Assembly: GCA_022780515.1 (NCBI GenBank)
Contig: JALEUV010000029.1
Span: 1-54,905, forward strand
Direction: 5' to 3'
Origin: Anaerococcus sp.
GTDB lineage: Bacteria; Bacillota; Clostridia; Tissierellales; Peptoniphilaceae
DNA length: 54,905 bases
A program made the translations under genes and the position numbers. Positions within the stretch are counted from its first letter, which is position 1, and each line of letters starts with the position of its first letter. Of this stretch, positions 23,946 to 36,525 are shown piece by piece. The notes below the pieces were generated by a model that searched no databases, was not told where the DNA came from, and was given only the letters and a program-made list of their open reading frames with translations.

Positions 23946-24341
23946 CTAGTCCTCTTCTATATAGGCTATGTAGTTTTCATAAACAAGCTTGTAGCCTTCA
24001 TCTAGAAGGGCCTCTCCTACAAATTTCTTTATTTCAGAGGTCCTATAAATTTTCCTATCAAGGCCATCAAGCTTCTTAGCAAGATCTACCATAATTATAT
24101 CTATATCTGAAGAGTTAAGTATTTGCTTGGATGTATGGGTGGCATTTCTAATAGACCTCTCTATCTTAGCTGGGTCATACTCCTCTATATTACCGCTCTT
24201 CTTGATAACATATTTTTTGTCATGATCAAGCAAGTCATCAAGGACTTCTATCTCCGTCTTCTTCAATAAATCCTTAAGGTCAGATAAGTCCAAATTATTT
24301 TCCTTCAAGTATCCAATTATCGTATCACTAAGTTTACTCAT
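23946..24341 (-). CDS. Stand-alone ATP-cone domain protein
   Basis: This is 131 residues. Residues about 42-130 match the ATP-cone, the allosteric nucleotide-binding module of ribonucleotide reductases and NrdR: KKYVIKKSGNIEEYDPAKIERSIRNATH, then RTSEIKKFVGEALLDEGYKLVYENYIAYI. The first 40 residues are a helical leader (DTIIGYLKENNLDLSDLKDLLKK). There is no zinc ribbon, so it is not NrdR, and no reductase gene is nearby. It abuts rlmH. It probably senses ATP/dATP for an unknown partner. Function is not established. Confidence 0.8.
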   Translation of the reverse strand: MSKLSDTIIGYLKENNLDLSDLKDLLKKTEIEVLDDLLDHDKKYVIKKSGNIEEYDPAKIERSIRNATHTSKQILNSSDIDIIMVDLAKKLDGLDRKIYRTSEIKKFVGEALLDEGYKLVYENYIAYIEED

Positions 24342-24451
24342 AAGCTCCCCCTAAAATAGTTATACCCAAATTTGATTGGGAATATTATAAAAATTTTAGA
24401 TAGATAATTATAATTTTAGGTTAATTGAGTAGCTTTTAATGATTTTTCTAG

Positions 24452-25090
24452 TTGTCGTATCAAAAATTTAATAATTTTTTTCATGATTGTAAGGAACTAG
24501 GCATAGAAATAGTCGCCAATGAGTCTTATGGGGAAAATGATACAGACTTCAAGGCCCAACTTACAACTATTGCTGGGGCTAAGCCTGATGTCCTATTGTT
24601 GCCAGAATATTACGAAAAATTATCACTTATAACCCCTAAGGCAAGAGAAGCCAATATAGAGGCTACCTTCCTAGGTGAAGATGGATGGGATGGGATATTA
24701 AAGACCATGGATGAGTCAAGCTATGATATTATTCAAGATGCTTACTTTGCAAATCATTTTAGTATAGAAGATACTGACCCTGAAGTTAAAGAATTCATAG
24801 ACACCTATAGGGAAAAATACGGCGAAGACCCTACAGCCTTTTCAGCCCTAGGTTATGATAGTGTTTATATAATCAAGGACGGATTTGAAGCTAGCAAGTC
24901 TGATTCAAATGAAGATAGGATAGCTGCTATCAAGGCTATAAACTTCGAGGGTATCACAGGAGACTTCTCCTTCGATGAAAATAACAACTCTCAAAAGTCA
25001 GCTGTAATGATGAAAATAGATGATGGCAAGTATACCTTTGATTCTGTGCAGGAAAAACAACCACCTTGCAAGCCATATCAGGACTCTTGA
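24452..25090 (+). pseudogene. livJ: livJ remnant, branched-chain amino acid binding protein
   Basis: The frame encodes the C-terminal 200 or so residues of a periplasmic-binding-protein-like LivJ (GIEIVANESYGENDTDFKAQLTTI, KPDVLLLPEYYEKLS, DPTAFSALGYDSVYIIKDG). The signal peptide, lipobox and first half are missing, and the upstream codon is a stop. The only available start is TTG without a ribosome site. At about 25046 the sequence jumps into the Walker A of livF, so the last 13 codons are livF DNA read out of frame. It is almost certainly not functional. Confidence 0.88.
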
Positions 25091-25644
25091 GAGCAAAAAG
25101 TGGAGATATATTATTTAAGGAAAAATATATCAAAAAAGAAAAAGCCTACCGTATAAGTAGGGCAGGCATAGGCCATGTTCCTGAAGGAAGGAGGATCTTT
25201 AGCGATTTAAACGTTGAGGATAATCTTATAGTTGCAACTATAGCGATCAAAAATAATGACACTAAAATAAATGAGGAAATAGAAAAAATATATGACCTCT
25301 TCCCTGTTCTAAAAGAAAGAAAATCCCAGAAAGCAGATACCCTATCAGGAGAAGAACAACAAATGCTAGCTATGGCAAGGGCCCTTCTTGCAGGAGCCAA
25401 GGTCTTGCTATTGGACGAGCCTTCCATGGGATTATCACCCTTATTTGTAGAAAAAATTTTTGATACCTTAAAAATCCTAAAAAAAGCTGGCGAGACAATA
25501 TTGCTAGTTGAACAAAATTTAAACCTTGCCCTAGATATTGCTGATAGGGCCTATGTTCTTGAAACAGGAAAAATTGTCAAAGAAGGACAGGCATCTGATT
25601 TGAAAAATGATTCAGCCATAAAATCTGCCTACCTAGGTATGTAG
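25048..25644 (+). pseudogene. livF: livF remnant, branched-chain amino acid ABC ATPase
   Basis: In frame from 25048 it reads A-G-K-T-T-T-L-Q-A-I-S-G-L-L: the end of a Walker A, then the rest of LivF: GIGHVPEGRRIFSDLNVEDNL, signature LSGEEQQMLAMARAL, Walker B VLLLDEPSMGLSP and the H-loop region LLVEQNLNLAL. About 37 N-terminal residues and the start codon are missing. The signature reads LSGEEQ rather than LSGGEQ. A first ATG at 25066 would give a protein lacking Walker A. With livH, livM and livG absent, no transporter can form. Confidence 0.9.
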
Positions 25645-25651
25645 GCAATCG

Positions 25652-25684
25652 AATAGGGGCTAGATTTTAGCCCCTATTAGATTT
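25652..25684 (+). terminator. Terminator after livF remnant
   Basis: AATAGGGGCT and AGCCCCTATT form a perfect 10-pair stem with loop AGATTTT, followed by a short T stretch. Confidence 0.75.
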
Positions 25685-25687
25685 TAC

Positions 25688-26653
25688 TTAGTCTATTTTA
25701 TTTCCATCTTCATCATATTTGTAGAAGCCTTCTCCAGTTTCTACACCTATTTTTTCATCATCTATTTTTTCTTTTAATACATCTTGGATTTTTTCAAAAT
25801 CGTATACGAAGTTTTCCTTTGGATTTTTAGCTAAATCTTCGTTTATAGAATAAGGAGTCTTTAGACCAACAATATCATATATATCAAAAGGTCCCATTGG
25901 AGCGCCTGTTCCTATCTTCCAAGCATTATCTATATCTTCAATGTCAGCAACACCTGTAGCATATAGGTCAAGAGCTGATGTTAAGAATGGAATTAGTAGT
26001 GAATTTAATAGATATCCTGCTTTTTCCTTCTTAAGAACTAGAGGTTGCATTCTAATATCCTTAGCAAATTGAGTTACTATATCAACATATTCATCTTCTG
26101 TTTCTGAAGTTCTCATAACTTCTACAACATTCATCTTGTGGATACCATTTGCAAAGTGTAGAGCTAGGAATTTTTCTGGTCTTCCTGTAGCTTCCATGAA
26201 GCTTGATGGAAGTAGAGAAGATGAGTTTGTACAAATTATTGTTTTTTCTGGTAGGTACTCTTGTATAGACTCATAGAATTCTTTCTTTTGGTCAAGATTT
26301 TCTGTCATAGCTTCTATGATTATATCACAGTCATCAAAAGCCTTCTCCATATCTGTTTCAAGGGTTAGCTCTTCGTGAGCTTTTTTAACTTTTTCTACTG
26401 TTTCTTCATAATCAAAATCATCATAAGAGTCAACAAGACCACCTGCAAAATTGAATTTTGTTTGTTCTTCTTTCATAAGCTCTAGATCGTTAAGACGTTG
26501 TTCAGTAAATTTTTCAAGTCTTGGTTTAGCTCTTTCTACTGATCCTTCACTTCTTAGCCAAACAGTTGTATCAAATCCACTATATTGAGCTTGTAGAGCG
26601 ATTTGTGCTCCCAAAACTCCACTGCCACATACTACTACTTTTTTAATATCCAT
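25688..26653 (-). CDS. 3-hydroxyacyl-CoA dehydrogenase family protein
   Basis: This 321-residue NAD-dependent enzyme has an N-terminal Rossmann fold (VVVCGSGVLGAQIALQAQYSGFDTTVWLR), the acidic motif IIIEAMTENLDQKKEFY, catalytic serine region TNSSSLLPS, catalytic histidine in LALHFANGIHKMNVVEV (HFFNP in classical members) and catalytic asparagine in KAGYLLNSLLIPFL. The C-terminal domain carries GTGAPMGPFDIYDIVG. It could act in butyrate-type fermentation, but no other acyl-CoA genes adjoin it. It stands between two broken genes. Its promoter region carries the palindrome shared with the surface-protein gene. Confidence 0.9.
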   Translation of the reverse strand: MDIKKVVVCGSGVLGAQIALQAQYSGFDTTVWLRSEGSVERAKPRLEKFTEQRLNDLELMKEEQTKFNFAGGLVDSYDDFDYEETVEKVKKAHEELTLETDMEKAFDDCDIIIEAMTENLDQKKEFYESIQEYLPEKTIICTNSSSLLPSSFMEATGRPEKFLALHFANGIHKMNVVEVMRTSETEDEYVDIVTQFAKDIRMQPLVLKKEKAGYLLNSLLIPFLTSALDLYATGVADIEDIDNAWKIGTGAPMGPFDIYDIVGLKTPYSINEDLAKNPKENFVYDFEKIQDVLKEKIDDEKIGVETGEGFYKYDEDGNKID

Positions 26654-26735
26654 AATATCTCCTTATATTTTTCACTTAATTCCTATTGTCATTTTATTAT
26701 ATACCACAAACTTATTAACTCTAAACATTTGATTG

Positions 26736-26749
26736 TTAGTAAATACTAA
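26736..26749. promoter_or_regulatory. Second copy of palindrome TTAGTAAATACTAA
   Basis: Identical to 2609-2622, and about 83 bases upstream of the dehydrogenase start. It also lies downstream of the TSUP remnant, but the dehydrogenase is the gene it could control. Confidence 0.45.
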
Positions 26750-26808
26750 AGTAATTTATTAAGGAGTTTAAAATCTTAATTTAAGCCTGCAAAATAAATT
26801 TAAATTTT

Positions 26809-27522
26809 CTAAAAGAATAACTTCCAAATAGCTATTAGTACCTATACTATTCCTATTGTTAATTTTAATTTATTTTTATCTACTTTATCTGACTTACTAC
26901 TACCGAGATATACACCTATTACATGTCCTATGATTACGGCTGGCATGTATTCTAAAATTATAGCCATATCAGAATTAGCAGTATATCCAATAGCAGAAGG
27001 TATCGCAATGAATATTGAATTAAATAATGATATAGCTACCGATTGCTTTACTCCTATTCCTAAAAGTAATAGGATTAGTAAAACTATAATAGGACCACCT
27101 GCACCAGTTATTGAGCATATCAAACCTGTAATAAAACCAATTATTATTAAGAATAGGTTACTAACATATTTTTTGCCTGACTCTTTATTATTTCTAAAAA
27201 GAATAGATAGTACAGAAACTAAAACAACGCCATACAAAATTATTTCTACAATATCCGATGGAATTATTAGATTAAGCTTTACTCCTAAAAATGCAGATAC
27301 AAAACTTCCTATATTTAATATAGATGCATATTTTATATCCAATTGTCCTTTTTTGTAGTAATTAACGCTTGCTAAAACACCAGAGATTATAAAGGCAGTA
27401 AAACTTAATGCTAAAGCTTCAGTCGTATCAATTTTTAGAACACCTATTTAGAATATAGGTAGCAAAAATCCAGTAATTCCACTAATTCCTAGAGATATTC
27501 TAATAACGAATATTGTACTAGA
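26809..27522 (-). pseudogene. TSUP (TauE/SafE) permease with two nonsense codons
   Basis: Read on the minus strand in one frame, the region encodes a nearly full membrane permease. It has GISGITGFLLPIF, then TAA (27450-27448), then IGVLKIDTTEALALSFTAFIISGVL, the central repeat GFITGLICSITGAGGPIIVLLILL, then KLKLTIGIV, TAG, VLIAIWKLFF and the true stop at 26809. The TSUP family transports sulfoacetate, sulfite or similar anions. The frame has not shifted and no start codon is visible before the first stop. The longest open part (27342-26842) could still be translated but lacks the first helices. Confidence 0.88.
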
Positions 27523-27610
27523 CTAATTTAGACAATATTAAGGACTTGACTTTGCATCTCTAAGATATTGTCTAATAAATATCTTACATATATATTATAC
27601 CTATATAGGA

Positions 27611-27638
27611 TAAAAAAACTCCAGAACTAAGTCTGGAG
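27611..27638 (-). terminator. Terminator of the DUF1538/PII operon
   Basis: On the minus strand CTCCAGA-CTTAGT-TCTGGAG is followed by seven T's, just past the stop. Confidence 0.92.
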
Positions 27639-27644
27639 CGTGGT

Positions 27645-29459
27645 TTATAGGGCTGTTGACATGCAAGCTTCTACCGGTAGGACAAAGACTAGCTCTTCGC
27701 TATGGTGGCTTAGGTCAAGCTCATCAACTATGGCATTGACTATATTATTGCATGAGCCAAGGTCTGTTACCAGGTAGATTATTTCCTTTTCTGCTTGGAG
27801 CTGTAGGTCAAAGATCCTAGAGGCTGGGTTATCTGACCTCCTACCATGGAGGATGGTCGCTCCAGTAGCTCCCCTAGACCTTGCTATTTCTAATACTTCA
27901 TCAGCCCTCCCCCTATCAACTACGGCTACTACTGCCACATCTTGGTAGGTGTAGGCTAGGATTTCGGATGGTTCATAGCTTTCGACTTCATCTAGCTCTG
28001 CCTTCTTCCTTTTTAGTTTGAATAATGCACCGAGGCTCATTATTGATAGGATCGGTGTCATGGCTACCATGGCTATTACTCCAAAACCATCGACCAAGAC
28101 ATCAGCACTATCTATAAGCTCTGCTGCCCCTTGGGCAAAGGCTAGGATGAAGGTTGCAGTCATTGGCCCACTGGCTACTCCCCCTGCATCAAAGGCGATA
28201 CCAACAAAGATTGGATCAACATAGAAGGAGAGGATGATGGCAAGGAGAAAGCCTGGCAAGAGGAAGTGCCATAGTTTTAAGTCACCTACCATAATCCTAA
28301 GCATAGAAAGGCCTATAGCTATCCCCACACCTATAGATAGGGTAATCTTTATGGCCTTTTGGGGAATAGACCCACCACTTACATCTTCTATTTGCTCACC
28401 CAGTACATGGACTGCAGGCTCAGCCAAGACTACTATCATCCCCATAATAAGGCCTATGATAGGAAGGAGCTTGGCATAATTTTCTCCAAGACCCATGCCT
28501 AGGATCCTCCCCATCTCCATAAAGCCTGCATTGACTCCTGCGAGAAAGACGCCAAGGCCTAGGACTGTTAAAATTATTCCCACTAGGATGGCATAAAGCT
28601 CTTCCTTATCGATTTTAAATTTAAAATAGTTAAAGGCAAGAAAGAGTAGAACCAAGGGCAAGATTGCCATAAGAGCCTCGGGTAGGGTTGTCATAAGCTC
28701 AGCAAAAACTGGACCAAAGACCCCCTCGCTTACTTCAAAGGCTCCAGCCCCTCCTTCGATTTTGCTTTGAGCACTTAGGATTGATAAGAGCATGATTGCA
28801 AGGACTGGCCCTGAGGACATAAGACCTACCAGACCAAAGGAATCCTTCTCGCTATTTCCTCCTCCCCTGTATCTAGCTATCCCATTACCAAGGGCTAGGA
28901 CAAAGGGTGTGGTCAAAGCCCCAGTAGTCGCTCCACTAGCATCAAAGGATATGGCAAGGAACTCTTCAGCCACAAGAATGGCAAGGACAAAGATAAGACC
29001 ATAAATTATAGCCATAAACTTATTGAAGGCAAGACCCTTGAAGGTCCTCACTATACCAAGGGATATCATAAGACCTACCCCAAAGCTTACCACATAGACT
29101 ATAAGGCTAGAGCCAAGCTCGCCCCCACTGGCATCTTCTATCTGCTTACCAAGTATCAAGAGGTCAGGCTCAGCTACAGTTATCAAAAATCCGAGGACAA
29201 AGGTTAGTCCTATGGCCTTAAGGATAGATTTAGAGGTAACAATCTCTTCTGCCATATACTTACCAATCTTTTCCATAGAGACCTCGACCCCTATCAAAAA
29301 TACACTAAGTCCAACAAAGAGGAAGATACCACCCAGGATAAACCTCCCTACAAGATCTAAGTCAACTGGCACTAGGGTCATATTTATTACAAAGACTAGG
29401 CCCATAATAGGGAGCAAGGATGCCAAGACTTCCTTACTTTTTTCCTTAATCAGATCCAT
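27645..29459 (-). CDS. DUF1538 membrane protein with C-terminal PII-like domain
   Basis: This 604-residue protein contains two copies of DUF1538, each with about six hydrophobic helices. The copies share AEPDLLILGKQIEDASGG (residues 96-113) with AEPAVHVLGEQIEDVSGG (346-363), and SFDASGATTGALT (171-183) with AFDAGGVASGPMTA (422-435). The acidic and Gly/Ser residues conserved inside helices suggest an inverted-repeat transporter. Residues about 503-604 are a PII-like domain (DVAVVAVVDRGRADEVLEIARSRGATGATILHGR ...), presumably cytoplasmic. The upstream gene encodes two more PII-like domains and overlaps it by 14 bases. PII proteins gate transporters in response to ATP/ADP or other ligands, so this looks like a self-regulated transporter. 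The substrate is unknown. Confidence 0.88.
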   Translation of the reverse strand: MDLIKEKSKEVLASLLPIMGLVFVINMTLVPVDLDLVGRFILGGIFLFVGLSVFLIGVEVSMEKIGKYMAEEIVTSKSILKAIGLTFVLGFLITVAEPDLLILGKQIEDASGGELGSSLIVYVVSFGVGLMISLGIVRTFKGLAFNKFMAIIYGLIFVLAILVAEEFLAISFDASGATTGALTTPFVLALGNGIARYRGGGNSEKDSFGLVGLMSSGPVLAIMLLSILSAQSKIEGGAGAFEVSEGVFGPVFAELMTTLPEALMAILPLVLLFLAFNYFKFKIDKEELYAILVGIILTVLGLGVFLAGVNAGFMEMGRILGMGLGENYAKLLPIIGLIMGMIVVLAEPAVHVLGEQIEDVSGGSIPQKAIKITLSIGVGIAIGLSMLRIMVGDLKLWHFLLPGFLLAIILSFYVDPIFVGIAFDAGGVASGPMTATFILAFAQGAAELIDSADVLVDGFGVIAMVAMTPILSIMSLGALFKLKRKKAELDEVESYEPSEILAYTYQDVAVVAVVDRGRADEVLEIARSRGATGATILHGRRSDNPASRIFDLQLQAEKEIIYLVTDLGSCNNIVNAIVDELDLSHHSEELVFVLPVEACMSTAL

Positions 29460-30090
29460 CTAAATCCTCCTTTTCCTTATTGATACCTACAGTAGATAAG
29501 ACAGGAACAGAAAACATAAAGCCTGCTCCCTTTTTTTCTATATCAAGCTCTTCGCCTACTTCCTTCATGACCCTCTCCTTATCCTTGGCATTGACTACCA
29601 TAAGCAAGATGTTCTTCTCTTCCTCTATGACAAAATCAAAGGCGTAGGATGTAGGAAGGCCCGCTCCCCTTCCATTTAAAATACTTGCTCCTCTTTGGCC
29701 TGCCTGGTAGAGGGCCTTGGTTGCCTGGGTCCTTTGACCCTTTTCTATAATTACAAAGAGGCAGTACAAGTCACTAGGGGCAATGTTGTCATTGTAGTGG
29801 CCATTATAGCTAAGGAGGGGCATAGAAAATCCTATCCCAGTGTTCTTCTCATCAAAGTGGTACTTATCTCTCAAAATATTGATAATATCTTCTTCCCTTG
29901 ACCTAGGAAAGGCGAGCATAATCATCTCCTTATCCCTCTTAACTAGGCCAAGCCTCGACAAAAAGCCCTCCGGCGCTATTCCTTCAGCATGGACGACAGT
30001 ACCTCCACTAAGACCCAGAGCGTGGATGGCTGCAAGGATACTGTTAACCTTCTTCTTTTCTGATATTATAAAAAATATTGTGTCTTTCAT
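29446..30090 (-). CDS. Tandem PII-like domain protein
   Basis: This 214-residue soluble protein contains two PII-like units. Unit 1 (about 1-100) reads TIFFIISEKKKVNSILAAIHALGLSGGTVVHAEG...; unit 2 (about 110-205) reads LYCLFVIIEKGQRTQATKALYQAGQRGASILNGRG.... Each has the strand-helix pattern and glycine-rich turn before the T-loop position. Unit 2 is closer to the PII domain fused to the DUF1538 protein (GASILNGRG versus GATILHGRR). I chose ATG 30090, seven bases after GTGAGG; the GTG at 30102 is part of that ribosome site. It is the first gene of the pair. Together the two proteins supply three PII-like domains, which could form a mixed trimer. Confidence 0.85.
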   Translation of the reverse strand: MKDTIFFIISEKKKVNSILAAIHALGLSGGTVVHAEGIAPEGFLSRLGLVKRDKEMIMLAFPRSREEDIINILRDKYHFDEKNTGIGFSMPLLSYNGHYNDNIAPSDLYCLFVIIEKGQRTQATKALYQAGQRGASILNGRGAGLPTSYAFDFVIEEEKNILLMVVNAKDKERVMKEVGEELDIEKKGAGFMFSVPVLSTVGINKEKEDLDGSD

Positions 30091-30196
30091 TAAAATCCTC
30101 ACTAAAATATTATAATTTACTTATAAAAGTTTACTTATATTAATTATACGTATTTTTTATTAGATTACCATTTGCAAAACATATTCTTTATCTAAA

Positions 30197-30417
30197 TATA
30201 ATGAAATTACATTCATTTTTTGCTAATATGAAAATTTATTTAGCTTATTTTGTGCAAAAATTAATAGATAAGAATAAAAATGGAGAGGAAAATATAACTA
30301 CACATAAGAATGTAGACCTATTCATATCAGAGTCCTTCATTCTAAAAATCCTAATCGAAAATAAAATAGTAGCTTATAGCCTATAGGCACTTTAAGGGGC
30401 TAACACCTCTTTTTTTG
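30197..30417 (+). ncRNA. Candidate small RNA or small ORF transcript
   Basis: TTGCAA (30173-30178) and TATAAT (30197-30202) are spaced 18 bases apart and form a good promoter. A terminator hairpin (AAGGGG-CTAACA-CCTCTT, 30394-30411) followed by T's ends the unit, predicting a transcript of about 200 bases. An open frame of 61 codons (30201-30386) starts inside the -10 box, so its ATG would lie upstream of the predicted RNA; an internal ATG at 30228 lacks a ribosome site. A non-coding RNA fits slightly better. The 30103-30196 part holds only the PII operon promoter region. Confidence 0.4.
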
Positions 30418-30420
30418 CAC

Positions 30421-30446
30421 AAAAATAGGTGGCAGCATCTGCCACC
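30421..30446 (-). terminator. Terminator of the ribose operon
   Basis: On the minus strand GGTGGCAG-ATG-CTGCCACC is followed by TATTTTTG, 74 bases past the rbsB stop. Confidence 0.8.
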
Positions 30447-30519
30447 ACCTACTTTCATAATTATTTTATTTAGTTAAGTCTTTCCTTTATTGGCTATAAG
30501 TTATAAAAAGGCTAATATC

Positions 30520-31470
30520 TTATTCTTTACTTATTAGCTCAAGTGGTGAAGGTATTTTTTCTTCTACTTCTTCGCCATTTAGGTATTTAGAAGCTGTTTC
30601 TAAGGCAATCTTACCCATCTCTTCTGGTTTTTGGGCAACTGTTGCTGATAGGCTGCCGTTTTTTACTGCCTCTATGGCATCTTCGTTTCCATCAAATCCC
30701 ACTATGATTATATCATTATCCTTGCCTGATAGGGCTTCTGCAGCTCCTAGGGCCATCTCATCATTTTGGCAGAATACTGCTTTAATATCAGGGTCTGCTT
30801 GAATCATATTTTCCATAACAGTTAATCCATCTGCCCTATCAAAATTAGCGGTTTGAGATGCTGTTAGCTCGATTTTACCTTCGATTGCTTGGCTAAATCC
30901 TTCTCCCCTCTCTCTAGTTGAGCTTGCTCCAGGAACTCCTTCTAGTTGGGCGATTTTGTCATTTTCGCCTATATTTTCAAGTATATATTCTCCAGCCATT
31001 TTGCCGCCTTCGACATTATCACTTGCTATAAAGCTTACTATTTCGCCTTCATCAGATCCCCTGTCTACGCAGATAACTGGAATATCAGCTTCATTAGCAG
31101 ATAGGACTGATGGTGATACTGCTGTTGAGTCTACTGGGTTGATAATTATTAAATCAACACCTTGGGTTATCAAATCTTCTAGTTGGTTACTTTGTGTAGA
31201 GCTATCGTTTTGTGCATCTACTATTACTACTTCTAGACCCTTTTCCTTTGCTTCAGCCTCGATACCATCTTTTAATGAAATAAAGAATGGATTGTTTAGG
31301 GTTGATATAGATACACCTACTGTAAAATCCTTATCAGAGCTAGCTGTTTCATTTGCTGGAGCCTTCTCTGTGCTAGCTTCTTCTGTCTTTTCTTCTCCTT
31401 CAATGCTGCAACCAACAAGTACCAATAATGTTAGCACTAGTGCTGATATAGTTCTTAAAAATTTTTTCAT
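30520..31470 (-). CDS. rbsB: Ribose ABC transporter, substrate-binding lipoprotein
   Basis: This 316-residue extracellular binding protein has a lipoprotein signal with lipobox LVGC, cysteine 21, followed by an acidic Glu/Ser linker. The type I periplasmic fold is evident: FTVGVSISTLNNPFFISLKDGIE, LIIINPVDSTAVSP, VICVDRGSDEGEIVSFIASDN, AVFCQNDEMALGAAEAL, IIVGFDGNEDAIEAV. It is last in rbsR-K-D-A-C-B. A 179-base gap separates it from rbsC, which could hold an internal promoter or an RNA-processing site raising binding-protein output. Confidence 0.95.
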   Translation of the reverse strand: MKKFLRTISALVLTLLVLVGCSIEGEEKTEEASTEKAPANETASSDKDFTVGVSISTLNNPFFISLKDGIEAEAKEKGLEVVIVDAQNDSSTQSNQLEDLITQGVDLIIINPVDSTAVSPSVLSANEADIPVICVDRGSDEGEIVSFIASDNVEGGKMAGEYILENIGENDKIAQLEGVPGASSTRERGEGFSQAIEGKIELTASQTANFDRADGLTVMENMIQADPDIKAVFCQNDEMALGAAEALSGKDNDIIIVGFDGNEDAIEAVKNGSLSATVAQKPEEMGKIALETASKYLNGEEVEEKIPSPLELISKE

Positions 31471-31649
31471 ACTTCCCTCCTAAATTTTTAATGTCCTTAT
31501 AATTATTTGTAGATCCATAAGCAAAAGGTCTAAGGGGTCGTATAATTTTTTAGCCTAGCTAATATTTTTATTCCCTCCTCACTTTTTTTAACCGCCTTAG
31601 TTTATTTATGGCTCACTTTTAAGCTTCTAATTGTAGTTTTTAATTTTAG

Positions 31650-32597
31650 TTATTTATTTCTCTTTCTATCTATTAGGACAGCTATTAGAATAACAACACC
31701 CTTAACGATTTGTTGGTAAAAGCTTGATACTCCAAGTAGATTTAATCCGTTATTTAAAACTCCTAGTATAAGAATACCTATAAGGGTTCCAACTAGGGAT
31801 CCACTACCACCTGTCATGCTTGTTCCACCGAGGACCACAGCTGCTATAGCATCCATCTCATAGGCTGCTCCTGCAGTTGGTTGGGCAGAGTTTAGTCTTG
31901 ATGTTAGAACAAGACCTGATATAGTCGCAAGTACACCTGACATTGTGTAGACCATAGTCTTAACCTTGTCTATTTTTATTCCAGAAATAAAGCTTGCCTT
32001 TTCATTGCCTCCTATGGCGTAGACCTTTCTTCCAAAGGATGTCTTGCCTAGGATAGCCATTAATATGACAAAAGTTATTGCAAACAATATTACTTGAAAT
32101 GGTATACCAAAAACCTTGCCCCTACCTAAGAAGGCAAATATAAAATTATCTCTAGGTCCAGGAATTGGTCTTCCCTTAGTGAAGACTAGGGTTGCTCCCC
32201 TATAAATTGTCATTGTGGCGAGGGTTACTATAAAGGGTTCTAGTTTGCTCTTTGTTATAAATAATGCATTTATAAAGCCCAGGCCTCCTCCTATAATTAC
32301 TGCTAGAAGGATTGCGAGAATTGGATTGAGGCCATTATTTAATAGGCTTGCAAAGATTGCAGATGTAAAAGCCAGGGTCGATCCAACTGATAAGTCTATT
32401 CCTCCAGTTAGGATTACACAAGTCATGCCCAAAGCAATAAATCCATTAATGATTAATTGCCTTAATAGGTTCATTAAATTGGATACTTGCAAAAAATTGC
32501 TATTTAATATGCTAACAATTACAACTAGCAATATCAAGGCTATAATTGTACCAAAATTTGGATTTTCTTTTATTGACTTTCCTTTAACTTTTTTCAT
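31650..32597 (-). CDS. rbsC: Ribose ABC transporter, permease
   Basis: This 315-residue integral membrane protein has about eight to ten helices and is of the RbsC/AraH family. Motifs include GMTCVILTGGIDLSVGSTLAF and AVVLGGTSMTGGSGSLVGTLIG. Its start overlaps the rbsA stop by four bases. It forms the pore with two copies, energised by RbsA. Confidence 0.95.
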   Translation of the reverse strand: MKKVKGKSIKENPNFGTIIALILLVVIVSILNSNFLQVSNLMNLLRQLIINGFIALGMTCVILTGGIDLSVGSTLAFTSAIFASLLNNGLNPILAILLAVIIGGGLGFINALFITKSKLEPFIVTLATMTIYRGATLVFTKGRPIPGPRDNFIFAFLGRGKVFGIPFQVILFAITFVILMAILGKTSFGRKVYAIGGNEKASFISGIKIDKVKTMVYTMSGVLATISGLVLTSRLNSAQPTAGAAYEMDAIAAVVLGGTSMTGGSGSLVGTLIGILILGVLNNGLNLLGVSSFYQQIVKGVVILIAVLIDRKRNK

Positions 32598-34075
32598 ATC
32601 TTCCCTCCAGTAGCAAGGGTCATAACCCTCTCTTGACTCTTCTCATCCTTTCCTATTTCTCCTTGAAGCCTACCCTCATAAATTACATATATTCTATCAG
32701 ATAGGCTTAATAACTCTGGTAAATCACTAGATATCAATATTACTGATAGGCCATTTTCTACAAGCTTATTGATTAGGTCGTAGATCTCTCTTTTGGCTCC
32801 TACATCAACTCCCTTGGTTGGCTCATCGAGAATCAAAATTTTGGGATTGATGCCGAGCCATTTTGCAAGGACTACCTTTTGTTGGTTACCACCAGAGAGG
32901 TCTTCTATCTTATCCTCTACTCCCTCACACTTGATTTTTAGACCACTTTTATAGTTTTCTGCTATACTTTTTTCCTTATCTAGGTCAAGCAAGATGCCTT
33001 TTTTAATCTTATCAATATTGGTAAGGCTTATATTTTCCCTAATTGTTTCATTTAAGATAAGGCCTTCTTCTTTTCTATTTTCAGTTAGGAAGGCAATGTT
33101 ATTTTTCATGGCATCTGAAGGGCTTTTTATGTCTATTTTCTCCCCATCTAAGAAAATCTCTCCCGAATCCTTATCGTCTATTCCAAAAACAGACCTAAAT
33201 ATCTCACTTCTTCCAGCGCCCATGAGGCCTCCTATGCCTATAACTTCATTGGCCCTGACATTTAGATTTATATCTTCAAAATAACCTTCTCTAGTGAAAT
33301 TTTTAATTTCTAATCTTATTTCCCCTGGATTAGACTTTATTGTAGGGTAGAAATCTCCTATAGACCTACCAACCATGTGCTTTACTAGCTCGCTTTCATT
33401 AATTTCGTCGGTATTGAAGACACCAACTGATTTACCATCCCTCATTACGCTGATTCTATCAGTAAGGGCAAATATTTCTTCCATCCTGTGGGAAATGTAT
33501 ATCATGGAAACCTTCTTGTCTTTTAGTTTCTTTATCAATTTAAAAAGTTTATCAATTTCTACATTAGTTAAGGCAGTGGTTGGCTCATCAAGGATAAGGA
33601 TGTTAATCTTACCCATATTTGCCTTAGCTATTTCAAGCATTTGCCTTTGACCAATAGAGAGGTCTTTGACTAAGTCATTGGGATCAATATTTAAGTCTAG
33701 TTCCCTAAATATTTTTATCGCTTCTTCTTCCATTTTTTTATAGTCTAGGAAAAATCCCCTTTTAAGCTCCTTGTTCATAAATAAGTTTTCAACAACTGTT
33801 AATTCTGGGTAGTCAACTAGTTCTTGGTGGATAAATCTTATTCCTAAATCACTTGCAGCTTCGGTCGAATCTATGTCAGTTTTTCTTCCGTCTATATATA
33901 TCTCTCCTGAGTCTTTTGAAATAAGTCCAGTAAATATATTCATAAGGGTGGACTTGCCTGCACCATTTTCTCCAACCAAGGCATGGATTTCTCCCTCCCT
34001 TATATCAAAGTCTACTCCCCTCAACACATCATTATTTCCAAAGCTCTTATAAATTCCTTTTAGTTCTGCTCTCAT
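32594..34075 (-). CDS. rbsA: Ribose ABC transporter, ATPase with two ABC domains
   Basis: This 493-residue protein fuses two nucleotide-binding domains. The N-terminal one is canonical (GENGAGKST, signature LSIGQRQMLEIAKA, Walker B ILILDEPTTAL). The C-terminal Walker A is degenerate (GLMGAGRSE), as is normal for sugar-import ATPases, with LSGGNQQKVVLAKWL and ILILDEPTKGVDVGA. It follows rbsD by eight bases and overlaps rbsC. Confidence 0.96.
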   Translation of the reverse strand: MRAELKGIYKSFGNNDVLRGVDFDIREGEIHALVGENGAGKSTLMNIFTGLISKDSGEIYIDGRKTDIDSTEAASDLGIRFIHQELVDYPELTVVENLFMNKELKRGFFLDYKKMEEEAIKIFRELDLNIDPNDLVKDLSIGQRQMLEIAKANMGKINILILDEPTTALTNVEIDKLFKLIKKLKDKKVSMIYISHRMEEIFALTDRISVMRDGKSVGVFNTDEINESELVKHMVGRSIGDFYPTIKSNPGEIRLEIKNFTREGYFEDINLNVRANEVIGIGGLMGAGRSEIFRSVFGIDDKDSGEIFLDGEKIDIKSPSDAMKNNIAFLTENRKEEGLILNETIRENISLTNIDKIKKGILLDLDKEKSIAENYKSGLKIKCEGVEDKIEDLSGGNQQKVVLAKWLGINPKILILDEPTKGVDVGAKREIYDLINKLVENGLSVILISSDLPELLSLSDRIYVIYEGRLQGEIGKDEKSQERVMTLATGGKI

Positions 34076-34083
34076 AAATCACC

Positions 34084-34476
34084 TCAGAATATGTTCTTTG
34101 ATTGGAGGATTATGTTTGAATAAGGAGTATTCTCTCCTGTTCTTATGACAAACTTAACATCCTTCAATTTCTCTTTGAAGTCCTCATGACTTATGTACTG
34201 ACAATCCACATCTTCAAGTAAACTCTTGATATTATCCTCTTGGGTAGGATTTTTATCTTTTATTTCACTTGCCAAAATATATTTTTCTACAGAGAAATCT
34301 TTCAATACTTCATCTAGGACTTCTATAAAAGAAGGCACGCCCAACTTTAACGAAATATCAATCTTTTTGTCCTTATCTATAGGAAGCCCACAGTCACCTA
34401 TAGCTATCAAATCTGTATGACCTAGATCTGCCAAGGCCCTAGCTATGTTACTATTTAAAATCCCCTTTATTTTCAT
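34084..34476 (-). CDS. rbsD: D-ribose pyranase
   Basis: This 130-residue enzyme interconverts beta-pyranose and beta-furanose ribose, so that RbsK receives the furanose. The catalytic histidine is His20 in ADLGHTDLIAIGDCGLPI, and the C-terminus has FVIRTGENTPYSNIILQS. It overlaps rbsK by four bases. Confidence 0.95.
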   Translation of the reverse strand: MKIKGILNSNIARALADLGHTDLIAIGDCGLPIDKDKKIDISLKLGVPSFIEVLDEVLKDFSVEKYILASEIKDKNPTQEDNIKSLLEDVDCQYISHEDFKEKLKDVKFVIRTGENTPYSNIILQSKNIF

Positions 34477-35366
34477 AAACTCTCCTCTAAAAATTGTTCT
34501 ACCCTCTTAAAATCAGGTATAGAATTACTTGCTCCCTTTTGTGTAACTGCAAGTGCTGAAGCAGCTGACGCATACTTCAAGCATTCCTTAATTCCATATC
34601 CCTTTGACATAAGGCCCACAAAGTAGCCTGTAAAGGTGTCGCCAGCTCCTGTAGTATCAATGGTATCTACTTCGTATATTTCTTGGCTTAAAGAAAGGTC
34701 TTTATCAAAATATACCGATCCCTGCCTACCCCTAGTGATGACAAATTTTGTATTAGGGTAAGTTTCTTTTAATGTTGTAATAATATCGTTTTCTTTGTCC
34801 TTATTAGTAATTTCCCTCGCTTCATATTCATTCATTATTATTAGGTCAATTAAGCTTAAGTCTATTTCTAATAGGTCCCTATTTATAGGTGAAGGGTTTA
34901 GGACTATAAAGATATTTTTCTTCCTAGCCTCTTCTATAATATAGGATAAATTATTAATTTCATTTTGTAAGATAAGTATATCCCCTTGGTCAAAGTATCC
35001 TAGGACATAATCGACCTCTTCTTTGTCAATACTAAAGTTTGCCCCATGGTCTAAGACTATGGAATTTTCTCCATTTTTGTCTACCTGGATAAAGGCGCTG
35101 CCGGTAAGTTTATCAGACGTCTTTATAAAATCAGTCTTTATCTCATTTATTTTTAGGTACTCTACTATAAAAGAATCCTTATAATTTAATTTCCCAGCAT
35201 GATAGATCTTATCAGATACCTTGGCCAAGGCTACTGATTGATTTAATCCCTTTCCCCCAATCTTTTCTTGGTATGAATTTGAATCAATAGTTTCTCCTGG
35301 CCTTACTATATGCTCCAGGGTAAAGACTTTATCAATATTTATTGACCCAAAATTTAGAATCTTCAA
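34473..35366 (-). CDS. rbsK: Ribokinase
   Basis: This 297-residue PfkB-family sugar kinase forms ribose-5-phosphate. Signature 1 is GGKGLNQSVALAKV; signature 2, with the catalytic aspartate and anion hole, is DTIDTTGAGDTFTGYFVG. Its start overlaps the rbsR stop by four bases. Confidence 0.96.
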   Translation of the reverse strand: MKILNFGSINIDKVFTLEHIVRPGETIDSNSYQEKIGGKGLNQSVALAKVSDKIYHAGKLNYKDSFIVEYLKINEIKTDFIKTSDKLTGSAFIQVDKNGENSIVLDHGANFSIDKEEVDYVLGYFDQGDILILQNEINNLSYIIEEARKKNIFIVLNPSPINRDLLEIDLSLIDLIIMNEYEAREITNKDKENDIITTLKETYPNTKFVITRGRQGSVYFDKDLSLSQEIYEVDTIDTTGAGDTFTGYFVGLMSKGYGIKECLKYASAASALAVTQKGASNSIPDFKRVEQFLEESL

Positions 35367-36358
35367 TTTTTAACCTCCTTTACACTTTCTCTTTTTTTTA
35401 TCTTAGGGCTAACTAGTATTCTCTTTTCTTTAAGCTTATCATTGAGCAAATCGTCTATCATCTGGATAGATAATTTTGCTATCTCATCTATATTTTGATC
35501 TACGGATGTTATTTTTGGATTTACTATATCATTTATAAAAAGATTGTCGTAACTTATTATAGAAATATCTTCTGGCACTCTTATGCCAACTTTTTTAAAA
35601 TATTCCAATATTCCGTAGGTACTCATATCAGAAAAGGAAAATATGGCATCTACCTTCCTATCAGCAAAGTATCGTCCCGCTTCATATCCTCCCTCATAGG
35701 TATAATTACCATGAAATATGTTTTTTACATCATAGGTAATTCCAGTATCAAGCATACACTTAATAGCCCCTGACAACCTCCTTGTCGAGTTTGCTGTCTT
35801 GGATGGGCCTATATTTAGACCTATGTTTCTAAAGCCATTATCTATTAGGAATTGAGTAGCTATGTAGCCACCTTCTTCATTATTACCTGTTACAATATTT
35901 ATATCCTTCTTGTGGTAGTCAAACTCATCTAAGAAAACGATATTATTCTTCTTAATAATTTCTTCATCAAATGTTTTGATTCGCCTATCGACTATTATAG
36001 CTGATTGAATATAATTACTTTCTATTAGGGATGTGAAAGATTTCTCATCCAGTTTTTGATTTCTACTATTGTGGATATACAAAAAATATCCTAGCTTTTC
36101 TGCCCACATGGTGATTCGATCTGATAAAAAACTAAAAAATGGGTTTATTAGGTCTGGAATTATAAGAACTATGGACTTGCTCTTTTTGGTTACTAGACTT
36201 CTAGCTATGTTGTTGGGCCTATATCCTATATCTTCTGCTGCCTTGATAACTCTTTTTCTGGTCTCTTCGGATATCTTGTGGTTTGTTTTATTTAATACCA
36301 TTGATACTGTAGTGATAGAAACACCAGCTAGCTTTGCTACATCCTTTATTGTTGGCAT
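35363..36358 (-). CDS. rbsR: LacI-family ribose operon repressor
   Basis: This 331-residue regulator has an N-terminal HTH (IKDVAKLAGVSITTVSMVLN) and hinge (RPNNIARSLVTKKSK), then a type I periplasmic-binding-fold sensor (IVLIIPDLINPFFSFLSDRI). It is the first gene of the ribose operon, so it is autoregulated through the palindrome at 36370. Confidence 0.94.
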   Translation of the reverse strand: MPTIKDVAKLAGVSITTVSMVLNKTNHKISEETRKRVIKAAEDIGYRPNNIARSLVTKKSKSIVLIIPDLINPFFSFLSDRITMWAEKLGYFLYIHNSRNQKLDEKSFTSLIESNYIQSAIIVDRRIKTFDEEIIKKNNIVFLDEFDYHKKDINIVTGNNEEGGYIATQFLIDNGFRNIGLNIGPSKTANSTRRLSGAIKCMLDTGITYDVKNIFHGNYTYEGGYEAGRYFADRKVDAIFSFSDMSTYGILEYFKKVGIRVPEDISIISYDNLFINDIVNPKITSVDQNIDEIAKLSIQMIDDLLNDKLKEKRILVSPKIKKRESVKEVKN

Positions 36359-36369
36359 AATTACCTCAT

Positions 36370-36381
36370 TAAAACGTTTTA
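36370..36381. promoter_or_regulatory. LacI-type operator of the ribose operon
   Basis: TAAAACGTTTTA is a perfect palindrome with the central CG typical of LacI/GalR sites. It lies just downstream of the -10 and 12 bases upstream of rbsR. A CcpA cre role is possible because the consensus overlaps. Confidence 0.8.
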
Positions 36382-36390
36382 CTTAATACT

Positions 36391-36418
36391 AGTATATCAC
36401 TATTTTTACACTTGTCAA
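36391..36418 (-). promoter_or_regulatory. Promoter of rbsRKDACB
   Basis: On the minus strand TTGACA (36418-36413) and TATACT (36396-36391) are 16 bases apart, directly upstream of the operator. Confidence 0.85.
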
Positions 36419-36483
36419 CTATTTATACCTATTAAATTAAAAAATCATTTATTTTTGATGTCCTTAAGTTTTTTAGAATTTAT

Positions 36484-36525
36484 AATAAAAAAAGGTAGAC
36501 TTGCTAGAAATCTTTGAAGTCTACC
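36484..36525 (-). terminator. Terminator of the cysteine hydrolase operon
   Basis: On the minus strand GGTAGACTT and AAGTCTACC form a perfect 9-pair stem followed by seven T's. Confidence 0.9.

Follow-up and report, generated by a model that had tools for sequence, protein, structure and literature searches.

The closest described system to the locus reported here is UmpAB of Halomonas zhaodongensis, which, according to the excerpts available of the original description, is a heterodimer of DUF1538 proteins that acts as a Na+(Li+, K+)/H+ antiporter, the evidence being complementation, co-immunoprecipitation, and vesicle assays (PMC5484666). Both umpA and umpB were required, and the construct that worked in E. 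coli consisted of umpA and umpB alone (PMC5484666, same excerpts); therefore a PII protein is dispensable for transport. As far as the available portions of these papers go, UmpAB was later reused as a positive control for K+/H+ exchange (PMC5996927), and a machine-learning study lists DUF1538 in a table of families that are key to pH adaptation (PMC13255231). PII proteins control the transporters AmtB, NrtABCD, UrtABCDE, and SbtA; those covered in the available part of a recent review carry nitrogen compounds or bicarbonate, and the control seems to be limited to transporters that are able to work as trimers (PMC10710835). No description of a pairing of DUF1538 with PII was found in the literature searched, subscription papers and preprints being outside its scope. 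The string 'P-II' has no match in the text of the UmpAB paper (PMC5484666), neither PII nor P-II is in the text of PMC6055358, which mentions DUF1538, the sole 'PII' match in PMC7221264, which also mentions DUF1538, is a motif string unrelated to it, and PMC12093952 names UmpAB with PII absent.

The locus that we describe lies in the window, by which we mean the whole stretch of 54,905 nucleotides that was analysed, and its arrangement is the form that a widespread DUF1538-PII unit takes in one lineage. It is like UmpAB in having two homologous DUF1538 halves, which in UmpAB are both needed together (PMC5484666, in excerpt), but both halves are in one chain, the NCBIfam scores are below the cut-offs, and PII-like domains are attached. 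As in GlnK-AmtB a PII protein is encoded beside its transporter, but the transporter is unrelated, the PII loops differ, the PII protein of the window is tandem and partly fused, and no Amt was found in the genome. With SbtB-SbtA of cyanobacterial bicarbonate uptake it would share a PII-like protein dedicated to one transporter, SbtB being AMP-dependent in the part of the review available (PMC10710835); here too the transporter is unrelated, and SbtB chains match the tandem PII profile weakly (about 40 residues, E 0.14-0.33). PstA, the c-di-AMP receptor, is likewise a short PII-like protein in Bacillota, but it belongs to a different family: the genome encodes its own PstA elsewhere (C69:5175-5498), along with a diadenylate cyclase, and PF06153 (PstA) is not among the Pfam families found for the 214-residue protein described below. 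In the genome (1.74 Mb, 89.7% complete) DUF1538 was found at the window locus only; the genome is placed in the Peptoniphilaceae, the nearest named relative found being Anaerococcus sp. AGMB09787 (93% identical).

Two overlapping genes occupy positions 27645-30090 of the minus strand, the one for the tandem PII-like protein being first and the one for the DUF1538 membrane protein second (Table 1). The two-gene unit with a 14-base overlap that the earlier note had described is borne out by the open reading frames and by the domain matches. The reading frame of the first gene extends over 29446-30102, and a length of 214 residues is counted from an in-frame ATG at 30090 that is preceded by AGTGAGG; a GTG at 30102 is also open as an alternative upstream start. 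Because hairpins of eight pairs with T tails, both on the coding strand (30446-30428 and 27639-27618), flank the unit, and because no further eight-pair terminator-like site was found between them (the scan gave 10 sites where 2.7 were expected), it is plausible that both genes are on one transcript. The promoter scan was no better than chance (8 found, 7.2 expected) and gave none on the minus strand upstream of 30090. A search of 24000-36500 against Rfam gave no riboswitch match at the gathering score.

Table 1. Positions in the window of the genes, domains, motifs, and signals of the DUF1538-PII unit
Feature	Position	Strand	Basis
Terminator-like hairpin that follows the preceding gene and lies ahead of the unit	30428..30446	-	hairpin scan
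Tandem PII-like protein, 214 aa	29446..30090	-	PF00543 in two stretches (47.9 bits); Foldseek with a weak model
First PII-like domain (d1), about aa 1-98	29797..30090	-	profile comparison, domain alignment
Second PII-like domain (d2), about aa 107-204; GRGxG and GxG B-loop kept	29479..29772	-	profile comparison, domain alignment
Gene overlap, 14 bases (ATGGATCTGATTAA); AGGAGG upstream of the second start	29446..29459	-	sequence
Membrane protein of 604 aa with two DUF1538 domains and a PII-like domain at the C-terminus	27645..29459	-	starts with ATG
DUF1538 repeat 1, N-terminal half	28776..29408	-	202.9 bits
Invariant AEP of repeat 1, aa 96-98	29166..29174	-	30/30 aligned relatives
DUF1538 repeat 2, C-terminal half	28026..28652	-	221.4 bits
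Invariant AEP of repeat 2, aa 346-348	28416..28424	-	30/30 aligned relatives
Fused C-terminal PII-like domain, about aa 507-598; without the conserved glycines of the loops	27666..27941	-	profile comparison, domain alignment
Terminator-like hairpin at the downstream end of the unit	27618..27639	-	hairpin scan

The 604-residue protein matches PF07556 (DUF1538) in two stretches with 410.4 bits against a gathering score of 22.6 (E 1.5e-123). The NCBIfam models for UmpA and UmpB (NF041627 and NF041628) gave 135.1 bits (E 2.3e-39) and 146.3 bits (E 1e-42), far below their equivalog cut-offs of 490 and 500 bits. The pair of homologous DUF1538 halves that marks UmpA/UmpB is present, in one chain here and as separate paired genes in relatives. 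Since the scores are under the equivalog cut-offs, transport could differ and the protein is not classed as UmpAB; at best it would work like UmpAB. The substrate, which had been put down as unknown, nevertheless has a precedent, and that statement is corrected here, because antiport of Na+(Li+, K+) against H+ has been demonstrated for UmpAB, a DUF1538 pair (excerpts of PMC5484666). The motif AEP...QIEDxSGG, which had been noted in both membrane halves, does occur in both halves of the window protein, but AEP is the only part of it that shows no variation in either half across the 30 relatives aligned. The remainder is well kept in the second half (Q356 in 30/30, E358 in 29/30, and G363 in 30/30) and less so in the first (Q106 in 26/30, E108 in 8/30, D109 in 4/30, and G113 in 23/30). 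D173 and D424 are likewise invariant among these relatives, and together with the AEP motifs they are candidate ion-path residues. A single-chain model of the protein, made from an alignment of 4, was unusable (mean pLDDT 37.8), and helices could not be counted cleanly from simple hydropathy; where the C-terminus would lie relative to the membrane was taken from a KRKK run that follows the last hydrophobic stretch.

The PF00543 (P-II) match of the 214-residue protein is well above the gathering score of 25. When a profile of 33 tandem PII sequences was searched against the PDB the top match was 9p1x_H (E 5.2e-7), followed by other PII and GlnK chains at E 0.0016 and weaker. Foldseek ranked PII structures first, with aspartate kinase chains also in the list; this counts as support only, since the predicted model is weak (pLDDT 60.1, from an alignment of 3 sequences). 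The protein is not a canonical GlnB or GlnK, as the GDGK-type B-loop is missing and the genome has no PF00909 match. The lysine after GDG in the B-loop of PII proteins has a role in ATP binding. At this position K or R is found in the two top-scoring PDB chains whereas the tandem PII profile has I, and in the domain alignment 50 of the 55 second domains have I directly behind GxG. Therefore, nucleotide binding by the tandem protein is not assured.

The C-terminus of the 604-residue protein gave no match to the Pfam P-II family at E<=1, and 14.7 bits against the cut-off of 25 in a separate scan. Profile comparison gave a different picture: a profile of seven fused C-termini aligned by hhalign with the profile of second PII domains at a probability of 99.7 (E 5.8e-26) and with that of first domains at 98.1, and in a pairwise phmmer comparison the C-terminus matched the PII protein of a relative (L014) at 8e-19. 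Thus, the earlier note was right that three PII-like units are encoded, by Pfam for the tandem protein and by profile comparison for the fused tail; its expectation that both would match PII profiles holds by Pfam for the 214-residue protein, whereas for the last 100 or so residues it fails by Pfam and holds by profile-profile alignment. A set of domains from 69 loci (L003-L071) comprised 55 first, 55 second, 21 single, and 9 fused domains, some of the single ones being cut by contig ends and the fused ones including near copies (L009/L010 and window/L033). The last glycine of the GRG loop, which follows the arginine, is present in 54/55 first, 55/55 second, and 21/21 single domains and in 0/9 fused domains, of which eight keep the G and eight the R ahead of it. 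The second B-loop glycine is found in 51/55, 52/55, 20/21, and 1/9, and the B-loop pattern [GN]xG in 46/55, 50/55, 19/21, and 0/9 of these classes, respectively, both B-loop counts being based on an alignment with gaps in that region. The GRG loop and the B-loop form part of the nucleotide site in ordinary PII proteins. Because the lost glycines sit in these loops, the fused domain has probably lost ligand binding, and because the conserved loop glycines are missing (0/9 copies) it looks like a degenerate docking domain.

The coupling of PII-like domains to DUF1538 transporters, which the earlier note had read from one locus, is strongly upheld in two phyla by co-occurrence, adjacency, and plasmids. 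In a phylum sample of 249 genomes, the one studied here included, 84 have DUF1538; a strong match to the PII subfamily was found in 83 of these 84 and in 0 of the 165 without DUF1538, where 'strong' is a threshold chosen after seeing the gap (weakest genome kept 1.0e-28, strongest excluded 8.7e-16) and where the genomes are related to each other, so that a Fisher p is not the true probability. In G115, the single exception, the DUF1538 copy is decayed and contains stop codons. Within the family of the window genome the 604-residue protein was matched in 38 of 61 genomes, and DUF1538 is fragmentary in three of the 38 (G010, G019, and G055). PII remnants adjoin the fragmentary gene in G019 and G055, and no PII was found beside it in G010 and G115. 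All 30 own-family loci that were fetched, the window among them, have PII adjoining or inside the DUF1538 gene, and with the loci of named kin (L033-L035) this becomes 33/33; for G023 and G051, also of this family, the match table places PII just downstream. Beyond the family and its named kin, PII is directly downstream of DUF1538 in 36/36 loci, made up of 30 from the best 30 of the 84 phylum-sample genomes and six from plasmids. Among 72,556 plasmid records, nine match the DUF1538 protein and the same nine match the single PII of Methylocystis; three of them are alphaproteobacterial, and the carriers seen include several Clostridia. In the Chelativorans and Methylocystis records two DUF1538 genes and a PII gene follow one another directly in that order, and in Chelativorans the first of them is annotated as short. 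Seven 'phage' records match DUF1538. They are 2 to 35 kb long, lack annotation, and are faecal or Listeria sequences; we take these for bacterial DNA and reject a phage origin of the unit. Among viral contigs the PII profile found no relative and the DUF1538 profile found one.

Based on these findings we propose, as the reading that we think rather probable, that the locus encodes a cation/proton antiporter together with its own PII control, as a self-contained unit. The transporter would be made up of the two DUF1538 halves, equivalent in a single chain to the UmpA/UmpB heterodimer, and would exchange protons against Na+, Li+ and/or K+. Its dedicated soluble regulator would be the tandem PII-like protein. 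The domains of this protein may respond to a small ligand, for which an adenine nucleotide is the most likely candidate, and would dock on the cytoplasmic face to restrain the antiporter, in the manner of GlnK on AmtB and SbtB on SbtA. The fused domain, which is most like d2, would probably serve as a permanently attached dock that keeps the tandem sensor at the transporter. With a cation/proton antiporter under a dedicated PII regulator, the reach of PII control would include pH and the balance of Na+ and K+; the unit suggests a little-described control of salt and acidity inside the cell. Such a regulator would also assign a function to adjoining genes whose sole annotation is 'DUF1538' or 'P-II family nitrogen regulator', the labels carried by neighbouring genes in five annotated plasmid records, and the degenerate fused domain would be a natural test of the docking mode of PII. 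A wider reading, that DUF1538 proteins are as a class PII-gated antiporters and that in one branch of the Peptoniphilaceae a sensor copy joined the transporter, lost its ligand loops, and as a built-in pseudo-PII docking subunit completes a mixed PII assembly together with the unfused tandem protein, is more tentative and we hold it as possible but doubtful; if true, PII gating across the class would tie nucleotide state directly to pH and salt balance.

Alphaproteobacteria are mostly without c-di-AMP, and since the same PII subfamily serves them, an adenine nucleotide is a better guess than c-di-AMP for the ligand of the PII domains. No match to Amt (PF00909) and no other PF00543 protein above the cut-off was found in the genome at its 89.7% completeness, and this argues against a shared nitrogen PII. 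It also bears on the alternative that the transporter moves ammonium, perhaps by NH4+/H+ exchange or export in amino-acid fermenters, with PII as a nitrogen switch. PII proteins classically control ammonium transport (PMC10710835, in part), NH4+ resembles K+, and the plasmid carriers include Clostridia as mentioned above; against this are the missing Amt, the fact that UmpAB carries Na+, Li+, and K+, no ammonium test appearing in the available part of its description (PMC5484666), and the gene neighbourhoods. In the flanks of 22 loci (in one of which, L069, the DUF1538 gene itself was missed by the non-overlapping ORF rule) six families outside the unit recur in at least three loci: ABC ATPases in six loci with 10 proteins, three of which were scanned and were all ABC_tran, and five families in three to four loci each, identified from the members scanned as an AAA ATPase, two families of phosphoesterase, an elongation-factor-like protein, and a SpoU methylase. 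These are generic ABC ATPases or, among close kin, housekeeping genes, and were rejected as metabolic partners; the survey for a consistent partner that the earlier note had called for therefore yielded none. We consider the ammonium alternative unlikely.

The simplest architecture found is umpA, umpB, PII; umpA, umpB, PII, PII and umpA, umpB, PII-PII are intermediate. Among the 33 loci of the family and its named kin, 24 have a fused umpAB followed by PII-PII (interrupted in L013 and cut in L023), and nine have the fused PII tail. The window type is PII-PII followed by umpAB-PII; the tandem PII gene is upstream in eight of the nine, broken in L034, and in L035 the contig ends. These counts bear on the suggestion that the three units are equal sensors forming one PII trimer on a 1:1 complex. 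There are indeed three PII-like units per transporter here and in the fused relatives, but relatives have one, two, or three, most of those examined having two, and the fused unit is without the conserved loop glycines in 9/9 copies; the equation of three units with one trimer, made in the earlier note, is thus not supported, and we regard this alternative as very unlikely. If PII control is limited to trimers, then DUF1538 proteins should be trimers of UmpAB units, UmpAB being described as a heterodimer. With such trimeric units three PII domains per transporter would be unneeded and one per unit would suffice, as in the simplest form found.

The window gene order fits a single origin in one branch of the family. 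In a tree of 45 rows, which took the fused rows that were long enough to enter and left out L034 and L035, the seven fused rows are one side of a branch with support 100/99, and the row next to it, L011, has the ordinary gene order. Among 67 domains, a branch with support 100/97 sets the 30 first domains apart from the rest, and in the best tree the fused domain falls with second PII domains; its grouping with first domains was not rejected (p-AU 0.47). Tandem arrays of DUF1538 and PII genes exist in L057 and L059, and these suggest that the fused domain may have arisen by tandem duplication and deletion, since the window order would result from a duplicated unit that then lost one of its transporter copies. 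In the copy of Peptoniphilus ovalis (L034:4700-5760) the gene is split by frameshifts, perhaps from sequencing error.

That PII does not act on the transporter at all, the genes adjoining through a common stress response while PII acts elsewhere, agrees with the tandem PII found without DUF1538 in three own-family genomes and with the activity of UmpAB without PII in E. coli (PMC5484666, in excerpt), but it is highly improbable in view of the covalent fusion in a whole branch, the co-occurrence of 83/84 against 0/165 in the phylum sample, and a pairing that persists where gene order changes. The three genomes (G031, G034, and G057) belong to the 38 matched by the 604-residue protein and to the 26 of the family without DUF1538, and their tandem PII genes (L073:5642-6268, L074:5656-6285, and L075:5415-6071) are beside unrelated genes; therefore, the PII protein can have another job. 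At two of these three loci, both of one genus, the tandem PII gene is followed by a 6-O-methylguanine DNA methyltransferase-like gene and a phosphoesterase gene.

Some neighbouring frames appear to be incomplete. At 24452-25644 on the plus strand of the window a Peripla_BP_6 match begins only at profile position 160 and overlaps an ABC ATPase frame that matches only from position 29, which looks like the remnant of a Liv-type ABC operon with its middle gone. At 26842-27342 on the minus strand a TauE/SafE permease frame matches PF01925 only from position 62, the N-terminal part being missing. Finally, a 148-residue frame at another locus (L076:5453-5899) has a partial PII-like match and overlaps the end of an aldehyde ferredoxin oxidoreductase gene.
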